Below, one piece after another: positions 39,889-57,120 of a DNA stretch of 64,000 nucleotides; the first letter of the stretch is position 1, and the number at the start of each line of letters is the position of its first letter. A model generated the notes under the pieces. The model worked only from the letters and a program-made list of their open reading frames with translations, did not search any database and was not told the DNA's origin. A program made the translations under genes and the position numbers. The stretch is from positions 2,108,001 to 2,172,000 of the forward strand of contig NZ_OMOR01000001.1 in assembly GCF_900302465.1 (NCBI RefSeq). The letters are read 5' to 3'. This DNA is from Ascidiaceihabitans donghaensis. Its GTDB lineage: Bacteria > Pseudomonadota > Alphaproteobacteria > Rhodobacterales > Rhodobacteraceae.

Positions 39889-41196
39889 ATGTCCGAACCA
39901 TTGGAACTGAACAACCTGGAAATGTCCGAAAAGGCCAAACCGCTTCTGGCCGCCGTGATCAAGCACATCCGCGAAAACGTGGATCCGATCACAGAAGAAT
40001 TCCACCGCCTTGGCGAAGGCCGCGCCGATCGTTGGTCTTATGCCCCCGGCCAGTTGGAATTGCTGGAAACAGCCAAGCAAAAGGCGCGTGAAAGCGGGCT
40101 TTGGAACTTCTTTTTGCCAAATGCAGAAACCGGCGAAGGTCTTGCGAACCTCGATTATGCCTACATCGCGGCAGAGCTGGGCAAGAACCCCCTTGCCTCT
40201 GAAACACTCAACTGCTCCGCGCCCGACACAGGCAACATGGAAGTGTTGGAACGCATTGGCACACAGCAGCAAAAAGATGCCTGGCTGAAACCTTTGCTTG
40301 CTGGTGAAATCCGCAGTGCGTTTGCAATGACGGAACCCGACAAAGCATCATCAGATGCAAAGAACATCGGCATGACCGCCGTGCTTGAAAACGGTGAATG
40401 GGTCATGAACGGCGAGAAATACTATATTTCCGGCGCTGGTGATCCGCGCTGTAAGATCATGATTGTTATGGTCAAAACATCGCCTGATGCGGAACCCTTC
40501 CGCCAGCAAAGCCAGATCCTTGTGCCTATCGACACCCCCGGCGTCGATATTCTTGGGCCGATGCATGTGTTTGGTCACGACGATGCGCCACACGGTCACA
40601 TGCACATCCGCTTCACCAATGTGCGCGTGCCTGAGGAAAACATTCTGTGGGGCGAAGGCAAAGGGTTTGAAATCTCTCAGGTCCGTCTTGGGCCTGGCCG
40701 CATCCACCACTGCATGCGCTCTATCGGACAAGCGGAAAAGGCGCTGGATTTGCTGATTGAACGGGGGTTGTCCCGCGTGGCCTTTGGCAAAAAGATCATG
40801 GACCTTGGCAAGAACATGGAAACTGTGTCGCGTGCCAAAATCGAGATTGAATCCATGCGTCTTCTGGTGCTGAAAGCGGCAAAAGCCATGGATGTGCTTG
40901 GCAACAAAGAGGCCCGTATCTGGGTGTCGATGATCAAAGCCAAAGTCCCGGAGCAAGTGTGCGACATCATCGACCAAGCCATGCAAGTGCATGGCGCGAC
41001 TGGTATTTCGCAGTGGTCGCCGCTGTCCAACATGTACGCGCAGCAACGCACATTGCGTTATGCGGATGGCCCCGATGAGGTGCACCATCACGTGATTGCC
41101 CGCCACGAAGTCAAAACCTATTCGGAATCCAACGCCCGTCAGGATGCGGCCAAGAAAGAAACCAAAGTCACAGGCTCTGCGGGGTTCATGGGATGA
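39889..41196 (+). CDS. Acyl-CoA dehydrogenase of the ACAD10/11 (LvaC-like) type
   Basis: 435 aa with the FAD-binding acyl-CoA dehydrogenase fold. The segment LGPGRIHHCMRSIGQAEKALDL and the end LRYADGPDEVHHHVIARHEV match the dehydrogenase domain of ACAD10/ACAD11 rather than MCAD. Asp393 sits where MCAD-type enzymes have catalytic Glu in YEGT. In ACAD10/11 and bacterial LvaC, relatives convert phosphorylated 4-hydroxyacyl-CoA to 3-hydroxyacyl-CoA. The matching kinase-like gene is at 54383-55408. The function here is an inference from family. Confidence 0.82.
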   Translation: MSEPLELNNLEMSEKAKPLLAAVIKHIRENVDPITEEFHRLGEGRADRWSYAPGQLELLETAKQKARESGLWNFFLPNAETGEGLANLDYAYIAAELGKNPLASETLNCSAPDTGNMEVLERIGTQQQKDAWLKPLLAGEIRSAFAMTEPDKASSDAKNIGMTAVLENGEWVMNGEKYYISGAGDPRCKIMIVMVKTSPDAEPFRQQSQILVPIDTPGVDILGPMHVFGHDDAPHGHMHIRFTNVRVPEENILWGEGKGFEISQVRLGPGRIHHCMRSIGQAEKALDLLIERGLSRVAFGKKIMDLGKNMETVSRAKIEIESMRLLVLKAAKAMDVLGNKEARIWVSMIKAKVPEQVCDIIDQAMQVHGATGISQWSPLSNMYAQQRTLRYADGPDEVHHHVIARHEVKTYSESNARQDAAKKETKVTGSAGFMG

Positions 41197-41957
41197 GCAT
41201 GTTTGATCTGACCGGAAAGGTGGCGCTGTTAACCGGCGCCTCCAAAGGCATGGGGTTCGAGATGGCCAAGGGCCTTGCCGAACATGGGGCCACGGTGGTG
41301 ATCTCGTCGCGCACGCAAGAGGATCTGGATGCGGCGGCAGCGGAAATAAACAAGGCCGTGGGGCGTGATTGCGCCCACGGCGTCGCGGCCAACATCGTGC
41401 ATGAAGACAGCTTGCAGGCGCTGGTGGACAAGACCCACGAGATTGCTGGCAAGATCGACATCGTGGTCGGCAACGCAGGTGTGAACCCTTATTTCGGGCC
41501 GATCGCAGGCATTTCGAACAAAGACTATGAACGCACGATGAACGCCAATGTGCAATCCAATCTGTGGCTGGCCAAGATGGTGGCTCCTGACATGGAAAAC
41601 GGCGGGTCGATGATGTTCACCTCCTCTATCGGCGCGTTCAAAGCCTCCGATATGCTGGGGGTTTATGGCATGTCGAAACTTGCCCTGATCGGTTTGGTGC
41701 GCAACTTGGCCACGGAATTCGGGCCACAAGGCATCCGCTTTAACGCGATTTGCCCCGGTCTGATCAAAACCGACTTTGCCCGCGAACTTTGGGACAAACC
41801 GGGTGTGGAAGAGAAGTATTCCAAATCTATCCCGCTGCGTCGTTTGGGCGAGCCTGACGACTTTGCGGGCCTTGCAGTATTCCTTGGATCGGATGCCAGC
41901 AAATACATGACCGGACAGGCGCTAACCGTCTGTGGCGGTTCGAGCATGTGGGCGTAA
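41193..41957 (+). CDS. SDR family oxidoreductase
   Basis: 254 aa classical short-chain dehydrogenase: coenzyme motif TGASKGMGFE near 12-21, NAG at about 95, catalytic Ser and YGMSK (Tyr/Lys) near 150-160, and the C-terminal MTGQALTVCGGSSMWA. It starts inside the dehydrogenase stop (ATGA overlap). It most likely oxidises or reduces a hydroxyacyl/ketoacyl intermediate. In the levulinate pathway an SDR (LvaD) makes the 4-hydroxy form; this gene or the next could play that part. Confidence 0.88.
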   Translation: MSMFDLTGKVALLTGASKGMGFEMAKGLAEHGATVVISSRTQEDLDAAAAEINKAVGRDCAHGVAANIVHEDSLQALVDKTHEIAGKIDIVVGNAGVNPYFGPIAGISNKDYERTMNANVQSNLWLAKMVAPDMENGGSMMFTSSIGAFKASDMLGVYGMSKLALIGLVRNLATEFGPQGIRFNAICPGLIKTDFARELWDKPGVEEKYSKSIPLRRLGEPDDFAGLAVFLGSDASKYMTGQALTVCGGSSMWA

Positions 41958-41960
41958 ACC

Positions 41961-42734
41961 ATGGAACTCAAAGATAAAATCATTGTGGTAACCGGGGCTG
42001 CCAGTGGCATCGGCAAGGCCATGTGCGTCCGCTATGCGGCCGAGGGTGCAAAAGCGATTGTTTGCATAGACCGCGACACAGCAGGCGCTGAAGCAACCGC
42101 GAAAGAGATGGGCGGCACTGCCATGACAGTCGATGTCGCCCATGAGGACCAGATCGTAGCGATGATCCATAAAGTCGAGGCCGAGATTGGTCCGATTGAT
42201 TTGTTCTGTTCCAACGCGGGCATTTCGGTGGCCGGTGGTGTCGAAGTGCCAAATGATGATTGGCAGCGCATTTGGGACATCAACGTCATGTCCCATGTTT
42301 GGGCCGCCCGTGCCTTGGTGCCGCTGATGGCGGAACGTGGTGGTGGTTACCTGCTGAACACCTCATCCGCCGCGGGGCTGTTGAACCAAGTGGGCAGTGC
42401 GCCCTACGGGGTCACAAAGCATGCCGCAGTCGGATTGGCAGAATGGATGGCCATGACATACGGCGATCAAGGGATCAAAGTGTCGGTTCTGTGTCCACAG
42501 GCGGTGCGCACCGAGATGACGCGCGGCCATGAAGATCACGTGGCGGCCATCGACGGGATGATGGAACCGGAGCCTGTCGCAGAAGCCTGCGTGCAGACAA
42601 TCCGCGACGAGACGTTTCTGGTTCTGCCCCACAAGGAAGTGATTGGCTATATGCAAGCCAAGACGCAAAACTACGACCGTTGGATTGGCGGGATGCGCAA
42701 GCTTAACAGGAAATACGGCGGTTTTGACGCCTGA
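41961..42734 (+). CDS. SDR family oxidoreductase
   Basis: 257 aa classical SDR with TGAASGIGKAM, CSNAGIS, catalytic Ser in NTSSAAG and YGVTK. The C-terminus (LPHKEVIGYMQAKTQNYDRWIGGMRKLNRKY) differs from FabG-type enzymes and is seen in SDRs of acyl-CoA and aromatic operons. It starts three bases after the previous SDR and is in the same operon. Substrate unknown. Confidence 0.87.
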   Translation: MELKDKIIVVTGAASGIGKAMCVRYAAEGAKAIVCIDRDTAGAEATAKEMGGTAMTVDVAHEDQIVAMIHKVEAEIGPIDLFCSNAGISVAGGVEVPNDDWQRIWDINVMSHVWAARALVPLMAERGGGYLLNTSSAAGLLNQVGSAPYGVTKHAAVGLAEWMAMTYGDQGIKVSVLCPQAVRTEMTRGHEDHVAAIDGMMEPEPVAEACVQTIRDETFLVLPHKEVIGYMQAKTQNYDRWIGGMRKLNRKYGGFDA

Positions 42735-42749
42735 TATGAAGGACTTACT

Positions 42750-43121
42750 ATGATTGGGTACACAACTATTGGTGTGAACGACATGGAGCGCGCCAAAGCG
42801 TTCTATACGGGCGTATTTGAGAGCAAGAACGCAAAGGTCGTGATCGATTCCGGGCGCATTGCCTTTATCGGAACCGAACGCGGGCAACCTATGCTGGCGG
42901 TGTGCGAGCCATACGATAAAGACGATCCAACGCCCGGCAATGGCGTAATGCTGGCGTTTCCAGCGGATGACAAGGCCCATGCCGATGCGCTTTATGCCAA
43001 GGCGATTGAGTTGGGGGCGACCTGCGATGGCCCTCCGGGGCAACGTATTCCTGATCGGTTTTATGGTGCGTATGCGCGTGATCCCGATGGCAACAAGATC
43101 TGCTTTTACGTCTTTGGCTAG
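42750..43121 (+). CDS. VOC superfamily (glyoxalase-fold) protein
   Basis: 123 aa forming one vicinal-oxygen-chelate domain: MIGYTTIGVNDMERAKAFYTGVF at the start and FYGAYARDPDGNKICFYVFG at the end, with an acidic metal-ligand position near the C-terminus. The family includes dioxygenases, isomerases and glyoxalases; the reaction is not determined. It is the last gene of the plus-strand operon, 15 bases after the second SDR. Confidence 0.85.
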   Translation: MIGYTTIGVNDMERAKAFYTGVFESKNAKVVIDSGRIAFIGTERGQPMLAVCEPYDKDDPTPGNGVMLAFPADDKAHADALYAKAIELGATCDGPPGQRIPDRFYGAYARDPDGNKICFYVFG

Positions 43122-43127
43122 AGCAAA

Positions 43128-43179
43128 GTTTTGATTATGTCGGGGGCTCTGCCGTTTTGATTATGTCGGGGGCTCTGCC
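43128..43179 (+). repeat. Perfect 26-bp tandem duplication
   Basis: Positions 43128-43153 and 43154-43179 are identical over 26 bases with no spacer. Each unit is GTTTTGATTATG followed by TCGGGGGCTCTGCC. The second unit runs into the dispersed repeat, so the duplication copied its left edge. It begins seven bases after the VOC gene stop. Confidence 0.95.
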
Positions 43180-43223
43180 CCCGGCCTTTGGCCTCCCCCG
43201 AGGTTTATTTTGCGAGATGAAGC
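43141..43223 (+). repeat. Dispersed intergenic repeat, copy B
   Basis: This copy has the full layout: GGGGGCTCTGCCCCC, then a GGCC TTT GGCC palindrome, CCCCCGAGGTTTATTTTGCG and AGATGAAG. The GC-rich self-complementary left part can form a hairpin and may act as a terminator between the convergent VOC and tesB genes. Confidence 0.8.
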
Positions 43224-43228
43224 CCGGA

Positions 43229-44107
43229 TCAGCTGCGGGGTTTGATGGGGCGGACCAGTCCTTCTTGAGCGGTTGAAGCGATCAGCGTTCCGTTTTTGTC
43301 GTATATGCTGCCGCGGTTGAAGCCACGCGCATTGCCGGTCCATGGGCTGTCCATTGAGTAGAGATGCCAGTCCTGGAATTGCGGAGTGCCATGAAACCAC
43401 ATGGCGTGATCGAGGCTGGCTGACATCACTTCGCCTTTGAACCACGTCAGGCCATGTGGCCGCAAAGAGGATCCCAGCAAGTTCATGTCAGATGCATAGG
43501 CCAAAAGGCAATGCTGCATTTGGGGGCTGCACCCCGCTGCCTCAGACATGCGAAACCACAGATGGTTTTTGTCGTCTGCCGGTGCCGGGTCAAAAAAGTC
43601 CCGTGGTGCGACTTCGCGAATGTCGATAGGACGGGGCCGCAAAAAATCTTTACGGAACTTTTCGGGAAGTTTGTCGGCCTCTTCTGCGCGTAAATCACGA
43701 CGGTCGGGCCAATTTTCCGGGGCAGAAACATCGGGCATCGGATGCTGATGGTTCCAGCCCTCTTCTTTCACATGAAAGCTGGCGGACATATTCAGGATCT
43801 GTTTGCCATGCTGAATGGCCACAACCCGCCGCGTTGTGAAGCTGCCGCCGTCGCGGGCGCGGTCCACTTGATAAATGACGGGTATTTCCGGATCACCCGG
43901 CCGAATGAAATAAGCATGCAGCGAATGGCACAAGCGGTCTGTCACAGTGCCATATGCCGCGGCAAGCGCCTGTCCGATCACCTGCCCGCCGAAGATGCGG
44001 GTTGGCGTTTCACCACCCTGCCCTGTGCCGCGAAACAAATCGACTTCAAGCGTTTCAAGCGCCAACAGGTCCAACAGGTCCAACAGCTTCTGGTGCGTTT
44101 CAGTCAT
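43229..44107 (-). CDS. tesB: Acyl-CoA thioesterase II (TesB-like)
   Basis: 292 aa with two hotdog domains: N-terminal (DLFRGTGQGGETPTRIFGGQVIGQALAAA) and C-terminal (SLDHAMWFHGTPQFQDWHLYSMDSPWTGNARGF). The Asp in SLDHAMWFH belongs to the Asp-Thr/Ser-Gln catalytic triad. It hydrolyses acyl-CoA to free acid and CoA. It is the last gene of a four-gene minus-strand operon and overlaps the acetoacetyl-CoA synthetase gene by four bases. Confidence 0.93.
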   Translation of the reverse strand: MTETHQKLLDLLDLLALETLEVDLFRGTGQGGETPTRIFGGQVIGQALAAAYGTVTDRLCHSLHAYFIRPGDPEIPVIYQVDRARDGGSFTTRRVVAIQHGKQILNMSASFHVKEEGWNHQHPMPDVSAPENWPDRRDLRAEEADKLPEKFRKDFLRPRPIDIREVAPRDFFDPAPADDKNHLWFRMSEAAGCSPQMQHCLLAYASDMNLLGSSLRPHGLTWFKGEVMSASLDHAMWFHGTPQFQDWHLYSMDSPWTGNARGFNRGSIYDKNGTLIASTAQEGLVRPIKPRS

Positions 44108-46062
44108 GTATTCAGGTCCTGTGCAAAAGCGATGAAAAAATCGAAGCTGTCTGGGTTGGCCATGGAATCGCGGTTCACCACAGTGTTCGGATTACCCCCC
44201 AACAGCAGTTTTTTCACAGGAACTTCAAGCTTTTTACCCGAGAGAGTGCGCGGGATTTCATCAACACTGACGATTTCATTTGGCACAAAACGCGGAGACA
44301 CTGCCGTGCGAATAGCTGCATTGATGTCCTGCTTTGTCGTATCTGTCAAAGCGCCTCGTGTGACAACAAACAGCGGCATGAAGCTGTCGCGGCCCAAAAA
44401 TTCAAGATCAACGACCAGTGAATCCAACACCTCATCCAAAGCTTCAACCGCCTGATAGATTTCTGCCGATCCCATCCGCAAGCCTTTGCGATTGATCGTG
44501 GCATCAGAGCGTCCGTAAATCACCGAAGACCCGTCGGCGCGAATTTCGATCCAATCGCCATGTCGCCAGATGCCGGGATACATATCGTAGTAGCTGTCGT
44601 ACAAACGGCTTCCATCGTCGTCACCCCAGAAAAAGAGCGGCATGGAGGGCAAAGGCTGGGTACACACCAATTCCCCCACTTCCCCGGTCAACGTGTTGCC
44701 TGCCCCGTCAAACGCATGGACTGCATTACCCAACGCGCGACATTGCATTTCTCCGGCACGTACGGCCATGCCCGGGTGCCCCAGCACAAACGCACCTGCA
44801 AGGTCCGTGCCACCCGAAATAGGCGCCAACCACACGTCCGCTTTCACGTCATTGTAAATCCAGTCGTAGGCATCCGACGACAAAGGCGATCCCGTCGATC
44901 CGATGGAGCGCAGACAATCTAAGTCCACAGCGTCACGCGGTGTGATACCAACTTTGCGGCATCCGTCGAAAAACGCAGCCCCTGCCCCGAAAAACGTAAG
45001 CTTTTGCGACGCCACAAATTTCCAGACCGCCATCAAATCGGGATGGTGCGGTGCGCCGTCGAACAGGCATACACATGCGCCCTGCCCCAAAGCCATCCAC
45101 TGTGCGTTCCACATGATCCATCCCGAGGACGTGATCCACGAAAAGCGGTCTTTGTGGGTCAAATCATGATGCAAAGACTGCTTGGCAGCTTCTAACATGA
45201 TGCCGCCGTGGCCGTGCACAATAGGCTTGGGATTGCCAGTGGTTCCAGAGCTGTAGACAATCCACAAAGGATGATCGAACGGCACTTGTGCATAGTCCAA
45301 TTGCGCATGCCCGTCACAGGCAGCCTGAAACGGGGCCCAACCTTGCAGTGCTCCGCCAGTTCCATCGGTGTGAGCCGCCACAAGCAGCTTGTGGCGCACC
45401 GATGGCAAACCGTCGGCGATTTGCGCCACAACGGCACTGCGATCAACGTGTTTGCCCGCATGCACATAGCTGTTTTGCGCAATCAAGACCTTTGGTTCGA
45501 TCTGACGGAACCTGTCCAGAACCGCGACATGGCCCATATCGGGTGCGCAAAGCGACCAAATCGCCCCAAGACTGGCTGTGGCTAAAAACGCAATCAGCGC
45601 CGTTTCGGTGTTGGGCAAAATTGCAACAACGCGGTCGCCTTTCACAACGCCGCAGCCCCGCAAATGATCCGCAAAATTGGCCACTTTTTGGCGCAGCTCC
45701 GTCCAGCTCAACGTCTGGGTTCCAAAGGTTTCAGACTGAACACACAGCGCGTCTGCATCGGGACGCACATCTGCATGACGCAAGATGTTTTGCGCATAGT
45801 TGACATGTGCCCCGTCGCACCATTGCGCCCCGGGCATGACGGAGCGAGACAGCATTTTGTCGAAAGGCGTCGAGGACTGAATGTCGAAAAACGCCCAGAT
45901 CGCAGACCAAAACGCGTTAAGGTCAGTGACACTCCAGCCCCACATTTCATTGTAATCAGAGAATGTTAGACCGTTTTTCTCATGTAAAAACCGTTCAAAT
46001 TCCGCCATAGTCGACGTGTTGTAACGATCTGCGCTGGGGGTCCATAAAACAGGGTTGGTCAT
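44104..46062 (-). CDS. Acetoacetate-CoA ligase
   Basis: 652 aa, the size of AacS. The N-terminal ACS-type extension ends near residue 100; the adenylation loop is IVYSSGTTGNPKPIVHG; later motifs are SSGWIMWNAQWMALGQGACVCLFDG, WRHGDWIEIRADGSSVIYGRSDATINRKGLRMGSAEIY and LSGKKLEVPVKKLL. It converts acetoacetate and CoA to acetoacetyl-CoA with ATP. It is consistent with use of ketone bodies and 3-oxoacids by the neighbouring thiolase. Confidence 0.92.
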   Translation of the reverse strand: MTNPVLWTPSADRYNTSTMAEFERFLHEKNGLTFSDYNEMWGWSVTDLNAFWSAIWAFFDIQSSTPFDKMLSRSVMPGAQWCDGAHVNYAQNILRHADVRPDADALCVQSETFGTQTLSWTELRQKVANFADHLRGCGVVKGDRVVAILPNTETALIAFLATASLGAIWSLCAPDMGHVAVLDRFRQIEPKVLIAQNSYVHAGKHVDRSAVVAQIADGLPSVRHKLLVAAHTDGTGGALQGWAPFQAACDGHAQLDYAQVPFDHPLWIVYSSGTTGNPKPIVHGHGGIMLEAAKQSLHHDLTHKDRFSWITSSGWIMWNAQWMALGQGACVCLFDGAPHHPDLMAVWKFVASQKLTFFGAGAAFFDGCRKVGITPRDAVDLDCLRSIGSTGSPLSSDAYDWIYNDVKADVWLAPISGGTDLAGAFVLGHPGMAVRAGEMQCRALGNAVHAFDGAGNTLTGEVGELVCTQPLPSMPLFFWGDDDGSRLYDSYYDMYPGIWRHGDWIEIRADGSSVIYGRSDATINRKGLRMGSAEIYQAVEALDEVLDSLVVDLEFLGRDSFMPLFVVTRGALTDTTKQDINAAIRTAVSPRFVPNEIVSVDEIPRTLSGKKLEVPVKKLLLGGNPNTVVNRDSMANPDSFDFFIAFAQDLNT

Positions 46063-47282
46063 ATCAATGCTCCGTGAACCAAGGCCTTCAATTCGGGGCG
46101 TGCAGGATAGGAGGATGACGGCGAGAGCTGCGTGAAGAAGATCACCGAAAGATCCTGAACCGGATCAATCCAGAAAAACGTAGACGCCATCCCGCCCCAA
46201 CTGAAATCCCCTACAGATCCCGCAGACCGCGCTCTGGCCGGATCAAGGACAACCGCGCCACCCAATCCAAAACCCATGCCTTCCATCGGTTGTTCCGCAA
46301 AACTTTGCGGCCCCATAGACGCAATGTCGCCCGGCAAATGATTGCGCATCATGAAGGCGACTGTCGCTGTGGACAACAATCGCACATCCCCAAACATTCC
46401 ACCCAGCCGCAGCATTTCAGAAAAGCGCGCATAATCGTCAATTGTGCCGACCAGCCCCCCACCGCCCGACGCCATGGACGCCGCCAGAAAGGGCGACCCT
46501 TCGTTGGTATCGACACAACGCAAGGATGGTGCATCGCTGCCGTGTTGCGTTGCATTCAAGGCAAGCGGGTCGCCCATCAGGGGCGTATACAAGGATGCAA
46601 AACGGTCTTGGTGACCGGTGCGCACGGAAAAGCCTGTGTCTTCCATGCCCAACGGATCCAGGATCATTTGTTGTATTGTCAGTGCCAGGTCTTGGCCCGT
46701 GATCACCTCGATCACGCGTCCAATCACATCAATGCCAACCGAGTATTCCCAACGTGTGCCCGGCACGAAGGACAACGGCAATTTGGCGACCGCTTTGCAC
46801 ATATCAGCCAAAGCGCCTTGATCAGGCTTAAAGACAAGATCGTCTTCAGCCATTTCGGCGGCCAGCACACCAGGGTTGAACGGATAGCTCAGACCCGATG
46901 TATGCGTCAGCAACTGGTGCAACGTCGGACAAGGGCACGGCACAGTGTCGTCAATGTCTTTTGCCCCGGGGCGGAGGGCGCGACAGTCTTTGAATTCCGG
47001 TAGAAACCGCGACACCGGCGCGTCCAAATGCACCAAGCCACGTTCGACCAAAATCATCAAAGCCACAGTCGTCACAGGTTTGGTCATCGAATAGATGCGT
47101 GCAATTGTGTCGCGCTCAAACGGTCGCCGGGACGCAACATCTGCGTACCCAGCGGTATGGAAAAACCGCTCATGGCCGTTCTCAAGCACAAGCGTGGCGC
47201 AACCTGCAAACTTCCCGTCATCGACGTAGGATTGCATCCAAACTTTCACACGGTCCAAACGGCTCACATCAAGATTGAACAT
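46059..47282 (-). CDS. Serine hydrolase of the beta-lactamase/esterase (EstB) family
   Basis: 407 aa with the SxxK motif SMTKP (near 68-72), the YxN-type tyrosine in WEYSVGIDVIG and a C-terminal motif FSWGGMASTFFWIDPVQDLSVIFFTQ. There is no signal peptide, so it is probably cytoplasmic and an esterase rather than an antibiotic resistance enzyme. It lies between the crotonase and acetoacetyl-CoA synthetase genes with a four-base overlap, which suggests it acts on an acyl or lactone ester in the pathway. Confidence 0.88.
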   Translation of the reverse strand: MFNLDVSRLDRVKVWMQSYVDDGKFAGCATLVLENGHERFFHTAGYADVASRRPFERDTIARIYSMTKPVTTVALMILVERGLVHLDAPVSRFLPEFKDCRALRPGAKDIDDTVPCPCPTLHQLLTHTSGLSYPFNPGVLAAEMAEDDLVFKPDQGALADMCKAVAKLPLSFVPGTRWEYSVGIDVIGRVIEVITGQDLALTIQQMILDPLGMEDTGFSVRTGHQDRFASLYTPLMGDPLALNATQHGSDAPSLRCVDTNEGSPFLAASMASGGGGLVGTIDDYARFSEMLRLGGMFGDVRLLSTATVAFMMRNHLPGDIASMGPQSFAEQPMEGMGFGLGGAVVLDPARARSAGSVGDFSWGGMASTFFWIDPVQDLSVIFFTQLSPSSSYPARPELKALVHGALI

Positions 47283-47285
47283 AGG

Positions 47286-48029
47286 CTACCCCAACATCTT
47301 TTGCATGGCGGGCCGGGTTTCGTCGGTGAACCACAAATCAGGCTCTGCCGTTGTGGCCGTCTTTATTTGCGCAATCACTTCGCCCCTGATCTGGTGCTTG
47401 ATGGATGCAAAGGCTTTTGGGGGAAGCTGTGCAAACTCTTGGGCCGCTTCAAGGGCGCAGGCATGTAGGGCATCCGGTTCAACCACATCGTCCACAAGGC
47501 CCGCCGCCAATGCGGCCTCGGCGCCGATGGGTTTTCCACGTAAGATCAAACGACGCAACGTGTTGGTATCCAAGGTGGCACGGGCGATTTCCATCGGACC
47601 AACGGGGAAGTCCACACCGACACGAACCTCGGCCAAACCAAACTGTGCGCGGGTGTCAGCGATGCGATGGTCCGCAGCCAAAACGAAAAACAGCCCCCCC
47701 GCAATCGCCGCGCCGTTGACTGCGCATATGACGGGCTTGGGGCAACTGTATTGGGCCAAAAACCCTTCGTTCAGCCCGCGCACAATCGCTTTTTGTTGCG
47801 CTTCATTAAAGTCCTGAGCAGCTTTCAGGTTCAGTCCCGCAGACAGGACTTTCAAGGGGCTGGTCAGCATAATGGCCTTCACTTCCTTTTCCGCACCCAA
47901 TTGATGCAGGACATCGCGGTACCCCATCAACTTTTCCGGCGTCAACGCGTTGACGGGGGCCGCGTTCAGAGAAAGCTCTATGACACCGCCGTCGTGTTTT
48001 ATCTGCGTGATCCACTGTGTGTCTGTCAT
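47286..48029 (-). CDS. Enoyl-CoA isomerase-like crotonase (single catalytic Glu)
   Basis: 247 aa crotonase. The segment NGAAIAGGLFFVLAADHRIAD has no Glu at the first hydratase position, while GLAEVRVG keeps the second one. One Glu is the pattern of Delta3,Delta2-enoyl-CoA isomerases such as ECI1. The end (AMQKMLG) is as in ECI-type proteins. The first gene of the minus-strand operon, three bases before the serine hydrolase gene; divergent from the isomerase gene at 48179. Confidence 0.85.
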   Translation of the reverse strand: MTDTQWITQIKHDGGVIELSLNAAPVNALTPEKLMGYRDVLHQLGAEKEVKAIMLTSPLKVLSAGLNLKAAQDFNEAQQKAIVRGLNEGFLAQYSCPKPVICAVNGAAIAGGLFFVLAADHRIADTRAQFGLAEVRVGVDFPVGPMEIARATLDTNTLRRLILRGKPIGAEAALAAGLVDDVVEPDALHACALEAAQEFAQLPPKAFASIKHQIRGEVIAQIKTATTAEPDLWFTDETRPAMQKMLG

Positions 48030-48178
48030 TTTGCACCCCCTGTTTGGATCAAGTTTGCCGCACAGTGGAAGACGCTGAAAGGGAAATCTGCCCCAAGGGC
48101 ACGATTGACCGCAGCGTCACCCCAAGCGTAGCCTTTGGGAAAGGGTCAAGACCCCGCGACTTCAAGAAAGCCAACACT

Positions 48179-48784
48179 ATGCAAACGATTGAATTTTATT
48201 ACGATTTCAGCAGCCCCAATGCCTATATCGCCCACAAACTGTTGCCCGGTATTGCGGCACGCACAGGCGCAAAGCTGATCTATAAACCGTTTTTATTGGG
48301 CGGCGTGTTCAAAACCACAAACAATGCACCTCCGCTGGTCGCGTTTCGTGAGGTGGCGGGAAAAGTAGACTACATGCGCGTCGAAATGGCCCGTTTTTTG
48401 GAACGCTTTGAGGTGCCGTTAAAATTCAATCCGTATTTTCCCGTCAATACCGTGAATTTGATGCGGGGGGCCGTCTATGCACAGGGCAAACACTGGGAAA
48501 CAGCCTATATTGACCGGCTGTTTGACGCGATGTGGATCGAAGGCCGAAACCTCGCAGATTCTGGTGTCGTAGATGAGGTCCTCAACGATGTGGAAGTTCC
48601 GCAAAACAACTTTAATAATGCAACTCAAGATGCTGGAATAAAGTCACAATTGGCAGAAGTGACGCAAAATGCCGTGAATCGCGGGTGTTTTGGATCCCCC
48701 ACGATGTTTGTGGGCACAGAGATGTTTTTTGGCAAAGATTCTTTAAGCGATTTGGAATGGCGGTTAGGCACGCAAAGTCCCTGA
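48179..48784 (+). CDS. 2-hydroxychromene-2-carboxylate isomerase family (DsbA/GST-kappa fold)
   Basis: 201 aa from the ATG at 48179; the longer frame from 48017 adds no family sequence. MQTIEFYYDFSSPNAYIAHKLLP matches the family start, with the Ser that coordinates glutathione in FSSPNAY, and the end CFGSPTMFVGTEMFFGKDSLSDLEWRL is also typical. Named members act in naphthalene degradation, but many homologues lie in acyl-CoA gene clusters and their reaction is unknown. Monocistronic. Confidence 0.88.
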   Translation: MQTIEFYYDFSSPNAYIAHKLLPGIAARTGAKLIYKPFLLGGVFKTTNNAPPLVAFREVAGKVDYMRVEMARFLERFEVPLKFNPYFPVNTVNLMRGAVYAQGKHWETAYIDRLFDAMWIEGRNLADSGVVDEVLNDVEVPQNNFNNATQDAGIKSQLAEVTQNAVNRGCFGSPTMFVGTEMFFGKDSLSDLEWRLGTQSP

Positions 48785-48806
48785 CCGCTTCAAACGATGG
48801 GCATGC

Positions 48807-48829
48807 ACCGGACATCTAAAATGTCCGGT
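48807..48829 (+). terminator. Terminator after the isomerase gene
   Basis: ACCGGACAT and ATGTCCGGT make a perfect 9-bp stem with loop CTAAA, followed by ACGTTTTC. It lies between convergent genes (isomerase and livF). Confidence 0.8.
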
Positions 48830-48852
48830 ACGTTTTCACTATAGAAAGCCCG

Positions 48853-49554
48853 TTAGACCTCTAACCATTCTTTGCGAACATCATCACGTCCGCGCAGTTC
48901 GTCAGGTGTGCCTTCAAAGACAACTTTGCCATGTCCCATAACGTACACACGATCGGCAATATCCATTGCAATCGACAGCTTTTGCTCAACAAGCAACGTC
49001 GCTACGCCGCGCTTTGCGATCTCTTGCAAAACGTCGGCCACCCGCTGCACCATTTGCGGACTTAACCCTTCTGTTGGCTCGTCAATCATCACAAGTTCAG
49101 GATCGCCCATCAAGGTGCGGCACATAGTCAGCATCTGCTGTTCGCCACCCGACATCACGGATGCTTCAACATCGGCGCGTTCTTTCAGGTTCGAGAACAT
49201 ATCAAACATGTTTTCCATGCTCCAACGTCCCACACCTTCTTTCTGGCCCGGTTTCATACCCAAAATCAGGTTTTGACGGGTCGTTAATCCCGGAAAGATA
49301 TCGCGATTTTCAGGCACATACCCAAGACCGATGTTTGCGATCTCAAATGCCTTTTTACCGGCAATCTCCTGGCCCTTGAACTTCACCGATCCATGTGGTT
49401 CGACTTCACCCATGATCGCCTTGCAGGTGGTGGACCGCCCCACCCCATTGCGGCCCAAAAGGGCTACGATTTCGCCTTCCTGTATGTTCAGGTTCACCCC
49501 TTGCAGGATGTGCGATTTGCCATAATAGGCGTGCAGGTCTGTGACTTCGAGCAT
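48853..49554 (-). CDS. livF: ABC transporter ATP-binding protein LivF (second system)
   Basis: 233 aa with Walker A GRNGVGRS (the usual Lys is replaced by Arg), signature SGGEQQMLTMCRTLMG, Walker B LVMIDEPTEGLSP. The Walker A reading GRNGVGRST, rather than GRNGAGKST, is seen in many LivF-like proteins. It forms the ATPase with LivG and overlaps it by one base. It is the last gene of the second Liv operon. Confidence 0.92.
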   Translation of the reverse strand: MLEVTDLHAYYGKSHILQGVNLNIQEGEIVALLGRNGVGRSTTCKAIMGEVEPHGSVKFKGQEIAGKKAFEIANIGLGYVPENRDIFPGLTTRQNLILGMKPGQKEGVGRWSMENMFDMFSNLKERADVEASVMSGGEQQMLTMCRTLMGDPELVMIDEPTEGLSPQMVQRVADVLQEIAKRGVATLLVEQKLSIAMDIADRVYVMGHGKVVFEGTPDELRGRDDVRKEWLEV

Positions 49555-50312
49555 CAGTGGTCTGCCTCCAAAACTTCGCCCAGATAGGCTTCTTGCACTT
49601 TAGGGTTGGCGCGAACTTCTTCGGGGCGGCCTGTTGCGATGATTTCGCCGTAAACCAGCACCGAAATATAGTCAGCCAAACCAAACACCACACCCATGTC
49701 GTGTTCAACCATCACCAATGTCTTGTTTTCGGTGACTTTGCGGATCAGATCCACAATGTAGTCGGTTTCTGAATGGCTCATGCCTGCAGTGGGTTCGTCC
49801 AACATGATAACGTCAGCGCCACCGGCAATTGTGATCCCGATTTCAAGGGCGCGTTGTTCTGCGTAGGACAGAACCCCCGCAGGCAGATTGCGCCGCTCCG
49901 TCAGGTTGATCTGTTCGAGGATTTCCTCGGCCCCTTCCGTCAAAGCGCGGCTGCGATCCAACAAGTTCCAGAAGGAATACTTGTACCCCATCGACCACAA
50001 CAGCGCACAGCGCACGTTTTCAAACACTGTCATGTTGCCAAAGATGTTGGTGATCTGGAAGGACCGCGAAAGACCCATCCGATTGATTTCATGTGGGGCT
50101 TTACCCGCAAGATCCGCGCCATGAAGCGAGATCGTACCAGAGGTCTGCGGAAAACGCCCCGTGATCAGATTGAACAGCGTCGACTTGCCAGCGCCATTTG
50201 GACCGATGATCGCATGGCGTTCGCCTTTTGCAATTTCCAATTCCACGCCGCGGATGATTTCGGTTTTTCCAAAGGCTTTACACAGCCCGTTCAAATGTAA
50301 TGCAGCCGCCAT
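49554..50312 (-). CDS. livG: ABC transporter ATP-binding protein LivG (second system)
   Basis: 252 aa with Walker A GPNGAGKSTLFNLITG, the signature region replaced by LSYAEQRALEIGITIAGG (as in many LivG), Walker B VIMLDEPTAGMS and H-loop MVEHDMGVVFGLADYISVLVYG. It starts one base before the livM stop region and is coupled. It energises uptake of an unknown substrate, probably an organic acid used by the flanking acyl-CoA operons. Confidence 0.92.
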   Translation of the reverse strand: MAAALHLNGLCKAFGKTEIIRGVELEIAKGERHAIIGPNGAGKSTLFNLITGRFPQTSGTISLHGADLAGKAPHEINRMGLSRSFQITNIFGNMTVFENVRCALLWSMGYKYSFWNLLDRSRALTEGAEEILEQINLTERRNLPAGVLSYAEQRALEIGITIAGGADVIMLDEPTAGMSHSETDYIVDLIRKVTENKTLVMVEHDMGVVFGLADYISVLVYGEIIATGRPEEVRANPKVQEAYLGEVLEADH

Positions 50313-50313
50313 T

Positions 50314-51603
50314 TCAAACGCCTCCTTTTGGGGGTGTGTTGGCTTCGCCCCATGCCTCTTTCAAGGCAGGCGCGTTTTTGCGTGTGATCCAAAACGCCGC
50401 AGCCGTCACCGCGAAGGCGATGATCCATGGCACGATGCTGTGGCTGTCAAAAGTGGTCCAGAACAGGGTCATTTCATTATCTCCTGTGGCCGCGTGCCGA
50501 TAGTGGAACGTCATTTCGACCAAGCAGGCCAACCCCAACACCGCAATCAATCCAGGCAAAAGCGTTTTCACGTACGGCATGGTCAAAGTGCCAAGCTTTC
50601 CAAAGCGCATCGCAGGCACATGCATCATCATCAGCCCTGCAAGCCCCCCGGGGAAGAACATAACCGTGGCGAGGAACAAAGAGCCTGCATAGAACGCCCA
50701 AAGCTCTGTTTCCAAAGACAAAACCGTCTGCAACAGCGTGAAGGCAATCGCCCCAATGATCGGCCCGAAAAAGAAGCCGACGCCGCCCAGAAATGTCACC
50801 AGAAGGATCACACCGGAGGACGCCGCGTTCAGGTTTTCTTCGGTCAGGATCTCGTAGTTGATCGCAAACAACCCGCCCGCGATACCGCAGAAGAACCCAG
50901 ACGCCGCGAAGCTGTAAAAGCGAACCCAGCGTGCAGAGTATCCCAAGAATGCCGCCCGTTCGGGGTTATCGCGAACCGCATTTGCCATGCGCCCGACAGG
51001 TGTGCGTGAAAACAGATACATCAGAACCGCAGACACCATCAGCCAAAAGGAAATCAGGTAATACACTTCGATCTGTTTCAGAAACTCGATGCCAAAGAAT
51101 GGCAGACCATACGTCCGGTCGCCCGAAATCCCTTCTTCACCGCCAAAGAACGCCACGATGATGATCGAACAGGCCGCAATCAATTCCCCGACCCCAAGCG
51201 AGATCATGGCAAAGCGTGTGCCAGCCCCGGTCGTCGAAAACGATCCGATAAGCATTGCAAAGCCCATGCCAAACAAACCGCCAAACAGTGGCAGCAACGG
51301 CAAGGGAAAAGCCACTCCGAAATCTTCAACGTAGTTCATCACGTGCATGCAGAAAAATCCGCCAAGCCCCATGTAGACCGCATGGCCAAAGGACAGCATG
51401 CCCCCCTGACCCAGCAACATATTGTAGGCCAATGCAAAGATCACTGTGATCCACATCTGGTTCATAATGGTGATGGACGAATTGTTGGTGAAAATGAACG
51501 GCAAGATCAGCAGCAAAATCCCTGCAATAATCCATGGCATATAGGTGATGGACAGAATGCCTGCACGCATCGGCGAAGCGGTGTTTGTGGCTTGATTGCT
51601 CAT
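50314..51603 (-). CDS. livM: Branched-chain amino acid-type ABC permease LivM (second system)
   Basis: 429 aa and about ten membrane segments, with LivM motifs TYGLPFFGIEFLKQ, ANAVRDNPERAAFLGYSARWVRFYSFAASGFFCGIAGGLFAINYEIL and VTFLGGVGFFFGPIIGA. The C-terminal extension (370-429) has an extra membrane segment and a charged tail. It overlaps livH by four bases. Confidence 0.9.
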   Translation of the reverse strand: MSNQATNTASPMRAGILSITYMPWIIAGILLLILPFIFTNNSSITIMNQMWITVIFALAYNMLLGQGGMLSFGHAVYMGLGGFFCMHVMNYVEDFGVAFPLPLLPLFGGLFGMGFAMLIGSFSTTGAGTRFAMISLGVGELIAACSIIIVAFFGGEEGISGDRTYGLPFFGIEFLKQIEVYYLISFWLMVSAVLMYLFSRTPVGRMANAVRDNPERAAFLGYSARWVRFYSFAASGFFCGIAGGLFAINYEILTEENLNAASSGVILLVTFLGGVGFFFGPIIGAIAFTLLQTVLSLETELWAFYAGSLFLATVMFFPGGLAGLMMMHVPAMRFGKLGTLTMPYVKTLLPGLIAVLGLACLVEMTFHYRHAATGDNEMTLFWTTFDSHSIVPWIIAFAVTAAAFWITRKNAPALKEAWGEANTPPKGGV

Positions 51604-52556
51604 GCGTCACGGTTCCCAAATAGGCCATAAGGACGGAAGATCAGGATCAGCACCATCAAGATATAGGGCAGAATATCTGCGATCTGGGGGCTGGTGACCG
51701 TCCAAAGGTCTCTAAAAATATTGTCGTCCAGGTTCTCTGGTGTGGCGATGCCGATGGCGTTCAACACATCCGACATGGCAAGGTTATAGGCCTTGGCAAA
51801 TGTGGTGATCCAACCGATCAACAATGAAGCAACAAGCGCGCCCCAAAGCGATCCAAGGCCACCGATGACGATTGTTACGAACACGATCGAGCCCAGCACA
51901 AACGCCATGCCCGGGAACGTGCCCAAAACCGGCCCCGCGATGACCCCCGCAACACCCGCCAGCGCGGTGCCAACACCAAACACGCCCATAAAGATCAACG
52001 GAACATTGTGGCCAAGGGCTTCAACCGTTTTGGGATAGCTCAGTGCGGCTTGAATAATCATACCCACGCGTGTTCTGGTCAGGATGTACAACAGCCCGAT
52101 GAAGATCGCGATCGATATGAAGATCATGAAAATCTTGTAGGCGGGAATGGAATTGCCTGCGATGGCGAAGGCGGTAAAGTTTAATACATCCGGAATATCA
52201 AAGGGCATCTGGTTCTTGCCCCAGACAAACTGCACCAGCTCTTCGATCAACAACGCAAGCCCGAAGGTAAAGATCAGCTCGGGCACGTGACCATATTGGT
52301 GCACACGCCGCAATCCGTAGCGTTCAACCCCTGCCCCCATGACGCCCACGACCACGGGTGCCACCAGCAACGCGACCCAAAAGCCAAGCGCCAGACTGAT
52401 CTGGTATCCGAAATACGCGCCCAGCATGTAAAAGCTGGCATGGGCAAAGTTCAAAACGCCCATCATTGAGAAAATAAGCGTCAGGCCGGCCGAAAGCATA
52501 AACAACAGCAATCCGGTCACAAGCCCGTCGATAAGATTGACGAGGATGAGTTCCAT
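51600..52556 (-). CDS. livH: Branched-chain amino acid-type ABC permease LivH (second system)
   Basis: 318 aa with LivH motifs LIDGLVTGLLLFMLSAGLTLIFSMMGVLNFAHASFYMLGAYF, a central loop and FVTIVIGGLGSLWGALVASLLIGWI. It forms the permease with LivM. The operon order is binding protein, LivH, LivM, LivG, LivF, with overlapping stops throughout. Confidence 0.92.
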   Translation of the reverse strand: MELILVNLIDGLVTGLLLFMLSAGLTLIFSMMGVLNFAHASFYMLGAYFGYQISLALGFWVALLVAPVVVGVMGAGVERYGLRRVHQYGHVPELIFTFGLALLIEELVQFVWGKNQMPFDIPDVLNFTAFAIAGNSIPAYKIFMIFISIAIFIGLLYILTRTRVGMIIQAALSYPKTVEALGHNVPLIFMGVFGVGTALAGVAGVIAGPVLGTFPGMAFVLGSIVFVTIVIGGLGSLWGALVASLLIGWITTFAKAYNLAMSDVLNAIGIATPENLDDNIFRDLWTVTSPQIADILPYILMVLILIFRPYGLFGNRDA

Positions 52557-52640
52557 CGGTGCCCCCCAAAGGACTGTGGGTTGGTGGTTGGAAAAAGTGC
52601 AGTATGACCCGCCCCGCCGATCAAGCAGGACGGGCCAGTC

Positions 52641-52661
52641 AAAAAGCGCTTATGGGCGCTT
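52641..52661 (-). terminator. Terminator overlapping the binding-protein stop codon
   Basis: On the minus strand AAGCGC, CCATAA and GCGCTTTTT form a 6-bp stem with U's, and the TAA stop codon lies within the loop. It probably ends part of the transcription before livH. Confidence 0.6.
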
Positions 52662-53891
52662 CATGTTGCATGAGGACTCAGAGTCCGCAGATGCCATTTC
52701 GATCGTTTTGATCGCTTTCACACCATACTCGGACCCGTCGTAGGCAAAAGTAATGCCTTCTTTTGTGTGGGCCTGAATGTGGACGTTCTGGATCGCCTGG
52801 TGATCGTTTTCACGCATCATAACCTGACCGCCCCAGAGTGAATCGTAGGTCATGCCTTCCAGTTCGTAAGCAATTTTCACAACATCATCAGCCGTACCCG
52901 CAGCGTCGATTGCCGCAGCCAGCATACCAATGGTGTTGGTGATGCGGGATTGGTCGACGTTACCGTCAGGATACTTCGCCTTGAAGGCATTGTAGTAGTC
53001 GGCGGCCGCATCAGACACTGGCGGGTTGATCTGACCTTCAGACACCAGACGGATCACACCTTCGCCTGTTTCACCAAAGGCCGCCGTAATACCGGAACCC
53101 GCAGCATAGTAGGTGTAGATCGGGCCGTCATAGCCGTTCTCAACGATGGATTTGCCAAGACCCAGCATATCCGCACCCCAGTTGCCTGTGATGACCGCTT
53201 GTGCGCCGGACGCAACGATTTTGCGTGAATACGGGGTAAAATCTTTCACTTTGCCGATTGGGTGCAATTCGTCACCGACGATTTCGATGTCGGGGCGCTT
53301 TTCGCCAAGGAAACGATTGGCCGCAGCAGACACCGCTTTGCCGAACGAATAATCCTGGCCGATGATGTAGACCTTTTTGATGCCTTCATCGGCAGCAATT
53401 GAATCCGTCAGCGCGTCCATTTTGATGTCGGCGTTGGCGTCAAAACGGAAGTGCCAGAAGTTGCACTTGTCGTTTGTCAACGCCGGATCAACAGCCGCGT
53501 AGTTCAGGAAGAGAACACGGTCGTCTGGGTTACGTTTGTTATGCTTTTCAACGGCTTCCGTGATTGCGTTCGCAACACCAGAGGAGTTGCCCTGCGCGAT
53601 AAAGCGAATGCCCTGATCAATCGCGACCTGCAATTGGATCAGCGACTCTTTTGGGCTGATCTTGTTGTCAAAGGCGACGATTTCGATGTTTTGGCCACCC
53701 AGAACACCACCGTTTTGGTTGATCAAGTAGTCCGCCGCGAATTCAAATTGGTGCAGTCCGTTTGTGCCTGTGCTGGCAAAAGGGCCTGACAGTGGGTCAA
53801 TAAACGCGACTTTGATGTCGGCCATGACAGCCACAGAGCTGACAGACAGCGCCAGCGCTGCGGATACACCAAGTTTAATGGATTTACGCAT
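52650..53891 (-). CDS. Liv-type ABC transporter substrate-binding protein (second system)
   Basis: 413 aa with signal peptide MRKSIKLGVSAALALSVSSVAVMA and GGGAGGAA before the ATG. The type I periplasmic fold is clear (IKVAFIDPLSGPFASTG, KKVYIIGQDYSFGKAVSAAANRF, VITGNWGADMLGLGKSIVENGYDGPIYTYYA). It may bind an aromatic or aliphatic organic acid rather than an amino acid, since it sits among acyl-CoA genes; this is inference. The end has paired cysteine-free CNMKRP. Confidence 0.92.
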   Translation of the reverse strand: MRKSIKLGVSAALALSVSSVAVMADIKVAFIDPLSGPFASTGTNGLHQFEFAADYLINQNGGVLGGQNIEIVAFDNKISPKESLIQLQVAIDQGIRFIAQGNSSGVANAITEAVEKHNKRNPDDRVLFLNYAAVDPALTNDKCNFWHFRFDANADIKMDALTDSIAADEGIKKVYIIGQDYSFGKAVSAAANRFLGEKRPDIEIVGDELHPIGKVKDFTPYSRKIVASGAQAVITGNWGADMLGLGKSIVENGYDGPIYTYYAAGSGITAAFGETGEGVIRLVSEGQINPPVSDAAADYYNAFKAKYPDGNVDQSRITNTIGMLAAAIDAAGTADDVVKIAYELEGMTYDSLWGGQVMMRENDHQAIQNVHIQAHTKEGITFAYDGSEYGVKAIKTIEMASADSESSCNMKRP

Positions 53892-54382
53892 AGAAGTTCC
53901 TCCCTAGAACAATATCCGACATACATCTCGTGTATTTCGTTAGTGTCGGTATGCAGGAAGCGTCGCACACGTAGGATATAAGTCAAGCTTTTGAAAAACC
54001 GCCCTTTTGCCAGCCTAAAGCGGCATTGAATTAGGAAAAATGAGACTATTTGTCTTGTTTTTTGACCCGCGAATTGCTGCACATGCACCTATTTACGTGA
54101 ACGTCATGCTGTACAATGTTGAAAGTATTGTAGAGTTTTCGAAATTCTTACGGATACAAACCACTCCGCACTTTCTGCAAGTGCAAAACACCCCGACAGG
54201 CGGATTGTCATATCACGTTTTACAGTCATCAAATCGACTGAAAGTGACGCAAGGGCATTTGGGCGTGCAAGAACACGCAAAAGGGCCAAAGCGCGTGTGT
54301 GCCTTGGCCCTTAAAATTCGAAGAGTGCGGTATGCTCGATTCTTGAACCTTTGCCGAAAACAAAGGCAGGCAAGTCAGGGTG
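53892..54382. promoter_or_regulatory. Intergenic region upstream of the second Liv operon
   Basis: This 491-base gap holds the promoter of the binding-protein gene on its left and the terminator of the phosphotransferase operon on its right (54291-54316). A CCGACA/TGTCGG inverted repeat (53916-53921 and 53944-53949) lies within the leader of the binding-protein gene and could be an operator. The rest is AT-rich with no supported coding sequence; a 154-codon plus-strand frame here was rejected. Confidence 0.45.
54291..54316 (-). terminator. Terminator of the phosphotransferase-thiolase operon
   Basis: AAGGGCCAA and TTGGCCCTT form a perfect 9-bp stem (54291-54299, 54304-54312) around a loop of four bases on one reading, with further unpaired bases possible. 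On the minus strand TTTTGC follows the stem. It lies about 70 bases after the phosphotransferase stop. Confidence 0.6.
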
Positions 54383-55408
54383 TTACAAATCCAGGGCCTT
54401 CAATCCGTTCTGTGCAAACACAGGAACAAAGGCCCCTACCTTCATGGCACGTTCAGGATTGGACGCATTGCCATCCAAAGCGCGTTTCAATACCCCCTGA
54501 ATGATTGCGGCCATACGGAAGAAGCAAAAACCGACATAAAACCCAAAGTTATCAATACCATCAATGCCACGGCGCATGCAGTATTGGTCGATAAACTCTT
54601 GATCCGTCGGCAGCCCCAATGCTGAACGGTCCACACCAGCCAGCCCGCGACCTTCTTTGCCCGCAGGCAATTGCCATTGCATAATCACCGACGCCAGATC
54701 CGCATAGGGATGACCTGTCGTGCTTAGCTCCCAATCCAGAACAGCCAAACAATTGGTGCCGTCGGCTTCGAAGATCATATTGTCGATCCGGTAGTCCCCA
54801 TGTACCAAAGTGCGCTGCCCGTCATCGGTGGGCATGCGATCCGCCAAAGCGTCCATTAATCGATCCATGGCTGGTACATCACCCGTTTCAGAGGCTTTGT
54901 ATTGTTTGGTCCAGCGCCCGATCTGGCGTTCGAAATAGTTGCCAGGAGGGCCGTAATCGCCAAGCCCGACGGCTTCGATGTCCACATCATGCAGTGCCGC
55001 CAGCACACGGTTCATGTCGCCAATGATCGCGGTGCGTTCTTCAACCGTTCGCCCGTTCAGCGTGGGTTCATTGAAATTACGGCCAACCACCTGATCCATG
55101 ATGTAGAACGATGATCCAATCACCGCATCGTCTTCACACAGCACATGCATTTTCGACACAGGCACTCCCGTGTCCCACAACGCCTTTTGCACACGAAATT
55201 CGCGATCAACGGCGTGGGCTGATTTCAACAGCTTTCCGGGCGGCTTGCGGCGCAAAACATAATTGCGTGCCGGTGTTTTCAACAAAAACGTCGGGTTGGA
55301 TTGCCCACCTGCGAATTTTTCGGCCTCGATTGGGCCTTCAAATCCGTCCAGATGGTTCTTTAGATATGCGCCAACCGCGTCCAGATCGAGTGTTTGCGTG
55401 TCCGCCAT
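54383..55408 (-). CDS. Phosphotransferase of the ACAD10/11 (LvaA-like) type
   Basis: 341 aa with the aminoglycoside-phosphotransferase/choline-kinase fold. The Brenner motif is HGDYRIDN (203-210) and the metal-binding Asp is in VLDWELSTTGHPYADLA (Asp225). The family is the N-terminal kinase domain of human ACAD10/ACAD11 and bacterial LvaA, which phosphorylate 4-hydroxyacyl-CoA. It is the last gene of the long minus-strand operon. Antibiotic resistance is unlikely, as the neighbours are all acyl-CoA enzymes. Confidence 0.86.
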   Translation of the reverse strand: MADTQTLDLDAVGAYLKNHLDGFEGPIEAEKFAGGQSNPTFLLKTPARNYVLRRKPPGKLLKSAHAVDREFRVQKALWDTGVPVSKMHVLCEDDAVIGSSFYIMDQVVGRNFNEPTLNGRTVEERTAIIGDMNRVLAALHDVDIEAVGLGDYGPPGNYFERQIGRWTKQYKASETGDVPAMDRLMDALADRMPTDDGQRTLVHGDYRIDNMIFEADGTNCLAVLDWELSTTGHPYADLASVIMQWQLPAGKEGRGLAGVDRSALGLPTDQEFIDQYCMRRGIDGIDNFGFYVGFCFFRMAAIIQGVLKRALDGNASNPERAMKVGAFVPVFAQNGLKALDL

Positions 55409-57060: not shown

Positions 57061-57093
57061 AGTGTCTAGCGCCTTATCAAATGAAGAAAGGTT

Positions 57094-57120
57094 GAGGCGG
57101 GCACCAAACCCGCCTCTTTT
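57094..57120. terminator. GC-rich hairpin between thiolase and nitronate monooxygenase genes
   Basis: GAGGCGGG and CCCGCCTC form a perfect 8-bp stem with a seven-base loop. The T-run (TTTT) is on the plus-strand side, so on the minus strand, where the genes are, it may only slow or stabilise the transcript. Confidence 0.5.

Follow-up and report, generated by a model that had tools for sequence, protein, structure and literature searches.

A split ACAD10/11-type kinase and dehydrogenase in a conserved roseobacter gene island, and an adjacent histidine-phosphatase-fold protein with serine in place of its second catalytic histidine

Ordinary beta-oxidation is for the most part unsuited to 4-hydroxy acids, and the locus described here raises the question of how the marine bacterium Ascidiaceihabitans donghaensis might degrade them. 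The locus lies in a stretch of 64,000 nucleotides (contig NZ_OMOR01000001.1, positions 2,108,001 to 2,172,000), referred to below as the window. It contains a gene for an acyl-CoA dehydrogenase (ACAD) at 39889..41196 on the plus strand and a separate gene for a kinase of the APH fold at 54383..55408 on the minus strand, the latter accompanied by a gene for a protein of histidine-phosphatase fold, HP1 (55418..56068, minus strand, 216 aa). Sequence, active-site residues and co-occurrence together indicate that the pair probably converts 4-hydroxyacyl-CoA to 4-phosphoacyl-CoA and then to 2-enoyl-CoA. This kinase/ACAD chemistry is of a kind already known, of which the island is a variant; the conserved His-to-Ser change in HP1 is the new and least expected point.

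In the systems characterised so far, 4-hydroxyacyl-CoA is first phosphorylated by the kinase; the ACAD then takes the phosphate off, yielding 2-enoyl-CoA with no added electron acceptor (PMC12440821, PMC11342911; these papers, like PMC6692424 and PMC11836120 below, are cited from the parts of their text available to us). Separate bacterial orthologues can substitute for the ACAD10 domains in vitro (PMC11342911). A reading of the window from its sequence alone (the sequence-only reading) had assigned the dehydrogenase to the ACAD10/11 type on the motifs LGPGRIHHCMR and YADGPDEVH, and the assignment holds: the 435-aa open reading frame (ORF) is intact and contains both motifs. A PDB sequence search with this protein returned ACAD11 8v3u (9.4e-116) and 8v3v at the top, together with 4hr3 (1.7e-111) and ACAD11 2wbi (1.5e-110), while the best ACAD of another kind reached only 8.9e-35. 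We regard 8v3u and 8v3v as structures of the mouse ACAD11 studied in PMC12440821 because their chains carry that paper's changes at the kinase Asp and the ACAD Asp. In the available account, mouse R626, H634 and R637 hold the 4-phosphate and D753 is the base (PMC12440821). The alignment with ACAD11 that had been suggested as a check was carried out, with the chain index of the structure equal to the published residue number minus one, and this phosphate clamp maps to R266, H274 and R277 of the window protein, the shared R631 to R271, and D753 to D393, bearing out the earlier remark that Asp replaces the usual catalytic Glu. The complete R-R-H-R-D set is present in 60 of 61 ACAD11-like proteins, the remaining one being cut short before the last position, and in none of nine other ACADs. 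In a tree of 70 rows (one tree, with mouse ACAD11 and LvaC not among the rows), the ACAD11-like proteins form a group separate from the nine other ACADs (100/100). Within it, the window ACAD belongs to a roseobacter clade of its own (100/100, 18 rows, stem 1.03), sister to the other ACAD11s of the family and distinct from the clade of ACAD11s usually found adjacent to the kinase.

The kinase was likewise correctly recognised. Its ORF (341 aa) is intact and contains HGDYRIDN and DWE; the coding strand, left unstated in the sequence-only reading, is the minus strand, and the plus strand contains stops there. In the PDB the protein matched 3dxp at 2e-108 and the kinase domain of ACAD11 at 3.9e-79, and mouse ACAD11 kinase residues D220, N225 and R176, whose roles are given in PMC12440821, correspond to D205, N210 and R161 in the window. 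R86 of that paper finds no match by numbering, though the window kinase does have an Arg next to the alphaC Glu. The protein is close to ACAD10/11 and not to the kinases linked to DUF6285, to which it is 22-28% identical. A PADLOC scan of the kinase returned nothing. The window pair resembles mammalian ACAD11/ACAD10, in which kinase and ACAD are fused into one protein, in the sequences of both enzymes, the phosphate clamp, the catalytic Asp and the kinase Asp/Asn. It differs in that the two genes are separate and stand in different operons, with no HAD domain and a histidine-phosphatase-fold neighbour instead (PMC12440821, PMC11342911).

A search of the 4.08-Mb genome, whose completeness is listed as 100%, gave a single match to the kinase and one ACAD11-type match (identity drops to 31-32% for the next ACADs), in agreement with the proposal of a split pair. 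Of the 199 family genomes sampled, 101 contain both genes, 17 the kinase only, one the ACAD only and 80 neither, such that both are found in 101 of 118 kinase genomes and in 101 of 102 ACAD11 genomes; the Fisher p value for this co-occurrence, 3e-37, is too small because the genomes are related. Where the kinase match is strong, 95 of 99 genomes have the ACAD. The window-type ACAD itself occurs in 15 of the 199, all of which have the kinase. In 12 of these 15 the two genes share a contig, ten of them at 12-20 kb and the other two at 49 kb and 1.3 kb; in the 1.3-kb case (G005) the ACAD adjoins a 44%-identical kinase, and a closer kinase is found elsewhere.

The sequence-only reading had placed the pair in two operons 13 kb apart. 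The ACAD and kinase genes are indeed 13.2 kb apart, but both operons belong to a single conserved island, which extends from 36012 to about 65.8 kb (~29.8 kb). Within an arm of this island, most neighbouring genes overlap or are separated by only a few bases. In relatives, the first two arms usually run from a divergent NADPH:quinone-reductase-type oxidoreductase (QOR) through two ACADs, two short-chain dehydrogenases/reductases (SDRs), a thiolase, a nitronate monooxygenase (NMO; not always present), HP1, the kinase, ATP-binding cassette (ABC) uptake genes, a serine hydrolase and an acetoacetate ligase to TesB. The third arm runs VOC-SDR-SDR-ACAD11-ECH-HCDH-ligase, where ECH is enoyl-CoA hydratase and HCDH is 3-hydroxyacyl-CoA dehydrogenase. 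Many relatives have lost some of these genes. The island is also near-complete on three Sulfitobacter plasmid stretches read through their annotation: pSD118 of Sulfitobacter guttiformis (including HP2, described below; crotonase and DsbA-fold genes not listed), the 179-kb plasmid of Sulfitobacter sp. SK025 (crotonase, DsbA-fold, NMO and HP2 genes not listed) and the 72.8-kb repABC plasmid of Sulfitobacter sp. M368 (thiolase not listed), where "not listed" is not proven absence, as the PLSDB gene tables are incomplete. On the M368 plasmid (L109) the island takes up ~40% of the 72.8 kb and stands beside hemE and hemC. The window-type ACAD, at 80-90% identity, is found on 14 plasmid records (13 Sulfitobacter, 1 Haematobacter). 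Among the matches listed (60 of 235), the kinase occurs at 73-76% on the 13 Sulfitobacter plasmids, and the Haematobacter plasmid is not represented.

The histidine phosphatase that had been reported beside the kinase is indeed there, 9 bp away, and its sequence departs from that of an ordinary enzyme. Compared with branch 1 of the histidine phosphatase superfamily (PF00300), HP1 is alike in fold, first RH motif (catalytic H9), Arg54 and Glu76. The phosphate pocket is largely retained, with Ser (S152) at the position of the second catalytic His. Removal of identical rows and rows shorter than 120 residues reduced 138 HP rows to 110 distinct ones, of which 73 have a kinase gene no more than 2 kb away; these represent 72 genes, as L080 is a locus-end fragment of the L168 gene. 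All 73 have Ser at the second-His position (SSGG 63, TSGG 9, ASGG 1, in a column-based reading) and retain Arg54 and Glu76, and 72 have the first His, the other being cut by the locus end. Among the 37 remaining rows, 24 have Ser and 13 have His, the latter being low-scoring ordinary phosphatases such as HP2; since 24 of the 37 also carry Ser, the change marks a wider subfamily and not kinase neighbours alone. Profile alignment with solved phosphatases (9mmh, CobC type, PGAM5) places the HP1 Ser on their His, and four of the five other PF00300 proteins of the genome have the second His, the fifth being a TSGG paralogue (L153, G000:C1:450254-450889). Single relatives of this paralogue are present in many family genomes. 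A PDB search with the HP1 sequence alone gave no match; the predicted model is confident (predicted local distance difference test, pLDDT, 93), and its best Foldseek matches are phosphoserine and other histidine-type phosphatases.

The high-scoring HP1 genes of the family sample are direct kinase neighbours in 39 of 39 cases, with gaps of 6-153 bp, and HP1 is found beside the kinase and/or the ACAD in ten families. The gene orders observed were HP-KIN (71), ACAD-HP-KIN (10), HP-ACAD (5), HP-ACAD-KIN (4), ACAD-KIN-HP (4), KIN-HP (3) and HP-KIN-ACAD (1); the loci overlap, and some genes are counted twice here and in the 131 loci below. No ORF fusing two of kinase, ACAD and HP1 was found among the loci. 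Outside the family, 32 genomes with an HP1 match were sampled (29 of 48 from one search and 3 from another), and 15 of them, from nine families, have a kinase or ACAD11 gene beside HP1, some with 0.5-0.7 kb between. The link to the pair is strong but not universal, because in the other 17 neither gene lies near HP1 within the 2.7-9 kb read; 11 of these 17 belong to one family (f155), where HP1 seems to stand alone. Further observations that, like these 17 genomes, weigh against a dedicated kinase partner are that 50 of 140 kinase ORFs have no HP gene within 3 kb (short-locus edges included), that most family genomes with a match also have one low-scoring HP1 relative located away from the kinase, and that the TSGG paralogue lacks the second His with no kinase in its 3.6-kb locus. 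DUF6285, which we take to be the LvaB family, is absent from all 131 loci that have a close kinase; where the only kinase is distant, it is present at 23 of 40 loci, which include those chosen for DUF6285; none of 30 DUF6285 loci and 128 HP-match loci contains both. This exclusion describes these loci and not a random sample, because they were selected by kinase, HP or DUF6285 anchors.

What, then, does HP1 do? We tentatively propose, as a possibility short of a probable one, that the split kinase/ACAD system of Pseudomonadota often has an unrecognised third part, in which HP1 would be a pseudophosphatase sensing 4-phosphoacyl-CoA and controlling the kinase. HP1 would perform no ordinary hydrolysis; it would bind the kinase or the phosphorylated product and regulate or assist, in the place that LvaB takes in lva operons, to which it would be an alternative. 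The proposal is made because of an analogy: the kinase of ACAD10 is restrained by a HAD domain whose DxD motif is incomplete and whose phosphatase activity is negligible (PMC11342911), and HP1 would be convergent with this domain. An account of comparable standing, quite possible although it falls below an even chance, is that HP1 is catalytically active and disposes of surplus or stray 4-phosphoacyl-CoA as a phosphatase, a role consistent with the first His, Arg54 and Glu76 retained as counted above, with the confident fold and its phosphatase matches, and with the phosphate-removing role proposed for the histidine phosphatase of the Pseudomonas citronellolis levulinate cluster, which contains the kinase, the phosphatase, LvaC and LvaD and, in the text available, no LvaB (PMC6692424). 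The Ser that occupies, in 73 of 73 rows, the position where active relatives align His speaks against this account, and in the characterised systems the ACAD itself removes the phosphate (PMC12440821, PMC11342911). Loss of the second His need not abolish activity, and this counts against a purely regulatory HP1, as yeast Vip1, a member of the superfamily without that residue, can be active (PMC11836120); Vip1 notwithstanding, the changed residue argues against an ordinary phosphatase. In the open-access literature, as far as its text was available, no description of an HP1-type kinase partner was found beyond PMC6692424.

The partnership of kinase and ACAD, and the acid on which they act, can be weighed in the same manner. 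Points that tell against partnership are the 17 of 118 kinase genomes without the ACAD (13 with weak kinase matches, that is, a best E above 1e-84, and 4 with strong ones), the location of the window-type ACAD and the kinase on different contigs in 3 of 15 genomes, and the fact that the ACAD adjoins the kinase in many relatives but not in the window. Together with the 13-kb distance and the long stem of the window-type clade, the split contigs could mean that the kinase performs another phosphorylation and that the window-type ACAD has drifted to ordinary dehydrogenation. This is very improbable given that the signature residues are intact in all 18 clade members read, that no other ACAD11 or kinase was found in the genome, and that the kinase is present in all 15 genomes holding the clade and on at least 13 of the 14 plasmids with the window-type ACAD (among the matches listed). 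For a pair acting on 4-hydroxyacyl-CoA, the sequence-only reading had favoured a levulinate-type substrate, which fared less well. The reference for this pathway is the lvaABCDE levulinate operon of Pseudomonas putida, reportedly described by Rand et al. in 2017 and known to us from citing papers. The island shares its logic of kinase, ACAD, SDR and ligase but lacks a DUF6285 gene, an lva regulator and an lva permease, and has a large beta-oxidation and ABC uptake set. The earlier observation that no LvaB-like small subunit is encoded extends to the whole genome, which has no DUF6285 match; neither the sigma54 regulator LvaR nor the acetate-permease pair LvaF/LvaG turned up in the scan of the island ORFs or in the plasmid-island annotations, the search being confined to the island. 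Because these parts are missing, we have lowered the levulinate reading, and levulinate as substrate is possible but not supported. A set of kinase, histidine phosphatase, LvaC-type ACAD, SDR and ligase without LvaB does recur in P. citronellolis LA18T, whose levulinate region is, in the portion of the report available, compact (PMC6692424). Even so, the island is unlikely to encode the lva pathway proper, which in P. putida and P. citronellolis leads from levulinate through 4-hydroxyvaleryl-CoA to 3-hydroxyvaleryl-CoA, as it also contains genes for a heteromeric ACAD, an MFE2-type SDR, a MaoC hydratase and a thiolase, which exceed the needs of a C5 acid. These companions suggest a larger or branched acid. 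The probable heteromeric ACAD consists of a small subunit (60180..61295, minus; PimD-like, below the cut-off of the PimD model) and a large subunit (61302..62465, minus) whose nearest solved structures are 4x28 and 6wy8/6wy9, which presumably have a role in steroid side-chain degradation; the SDR (58422..59339, minus) resembles the 3-hydroxyacyl-CoA dehydrogenase of MFE2/17-beta-HSD4 (PDB 2et6 1e-116, 1zbq 1.1e-69). One could accordingly imagine degradation of the side chain of a steroid or another polycyclic compound, with the ACAD11 pair taking a late 4-hydroxyacyl intermediate, and steroid side-chain models do come out top for the ECH and in second place for the ligase, with scores well short of the cut-off in both cases. 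We consider this somewhat more unlikely still: the resemblance is only at family level, and the genome has no KshA_C match, although that search is a weak one (14 control genomes gave one match, none above cut-off).

The data presented above lead us to propose the following route for a 4-hydroxy acid. The acid would be imported by a branched-chain-amino-acid/urea (Liv/Urt)-type ABC system of two ATPases, two permeases and a binding protein (48853..53891, minus), which stands beside the kinase in many relatives. It might be released from a lactone or ester by the beta-lactamase-fold serine hydrolase, a possible esterase/lactonase (46059..47282, minus; Pfam Beta-lactamase 1.3e-60), although this step is a guess. 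Activation would fall to the AMP-forming acyl-CoA ligase (36012..37814, plus; Pfam AMP-binding 3.2e-77), the first gene of operon A, whose start is probably internal to its ORF and which is linked to HCDH-ECH-ACAD11-SDR-SDR in relatives and on plasmids. Where the acid arrives as a ketone, it would be reduced by an SDR, for which the candidate LvaD-like 4-keto/4-hydroxy reductase (41193..41957, plus), overlapping the ACAD gene by 4 bp, is available. The kinase would then phosphorylate the 4-hydroxyl of the 4-hydroxyacyl-CoA, and the ACAD would eliminate the phosphate through an internal oxidation-elimination-reduction on FAD, giving 2-enoyl-CoA. Degradation could be completed by the ECH (39097..39876, plus; ECH_1 7.5e-67) and HCDH (37793..39100, plus; 3HCDH_N 1.1e-60), or by the MaoC hydratase and SDR, with the thiolase, an acetyl-CoA acyltransferase (57136..58332, minus; domain scan).

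The remaining genes complete the island. Operon A continues with a second SDR (41961..42734, plus) and ends with a glyoxalase/VOC-fold protein (42750..43121, plus), both identified by domain scan. The minus-strand arm contains a TesB-type acyl-CoA thioesterase (43229..44107; domain scan), an acetoacetate--CoA ligase (44104..46062; score above the curated cut-off) and a crotonase-family protein (47286..48029), for which no gene is listed at that place on the three plasmids read. On the opposite strand within this arm is a DsbA-fold protein (48179-48784, plus), which presumably resembles 2-hydroxychromene-2-carboxylate isomerase. Beyond HP1 lie an NMO/FabK-like flavoprotein (56068..57132, minus) and, past the thiolase and the MFE2-like SDR, a further SDR (59343..60167, minus). 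The QOR forms the divergent arm (62629..63621, plus) and has an equivalent place on the plasmids. It is followed by HP2, an ordinary histidine phosphatase that retains the second His (63651..64000, minus) and continues beyond the window end; a PGR-type reductase and the MaoC hydratase follow directly past that end. Between the kinase and the binding protein, the three Sulfitobacter plasmid islands have an IclR-family regulator gene; the corresponding gap in the window, 53892-54382, is 491 bp and too small for one. A pst-phoU-phoB phosphate operon (30682-35787, plus) ends ~0.2 kb upstream of the first gene of the island; this proximity is probably fortuitous, even if phosphate is both consumed and set free along the pathway.

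Mammalian enzymes that clear 4-hydroxy acids were reported only in 2024-2025, and a roseobacter island with two separate single-copy genes provides a simple genetic system for the same reaction. The presence of the island on plasmids with its uptake and oxidation set suggests that the entire ability can travel. If HP1 is indeed a non-hydrolytic controller, a degenerate phosphatase would have been recruited on two occasions to prevent the build-up of phosphorylated acyl-CoA, and many bacterial genes next to such kinases that are now annotated "histidine phosphatase" would have to be re-annotated.

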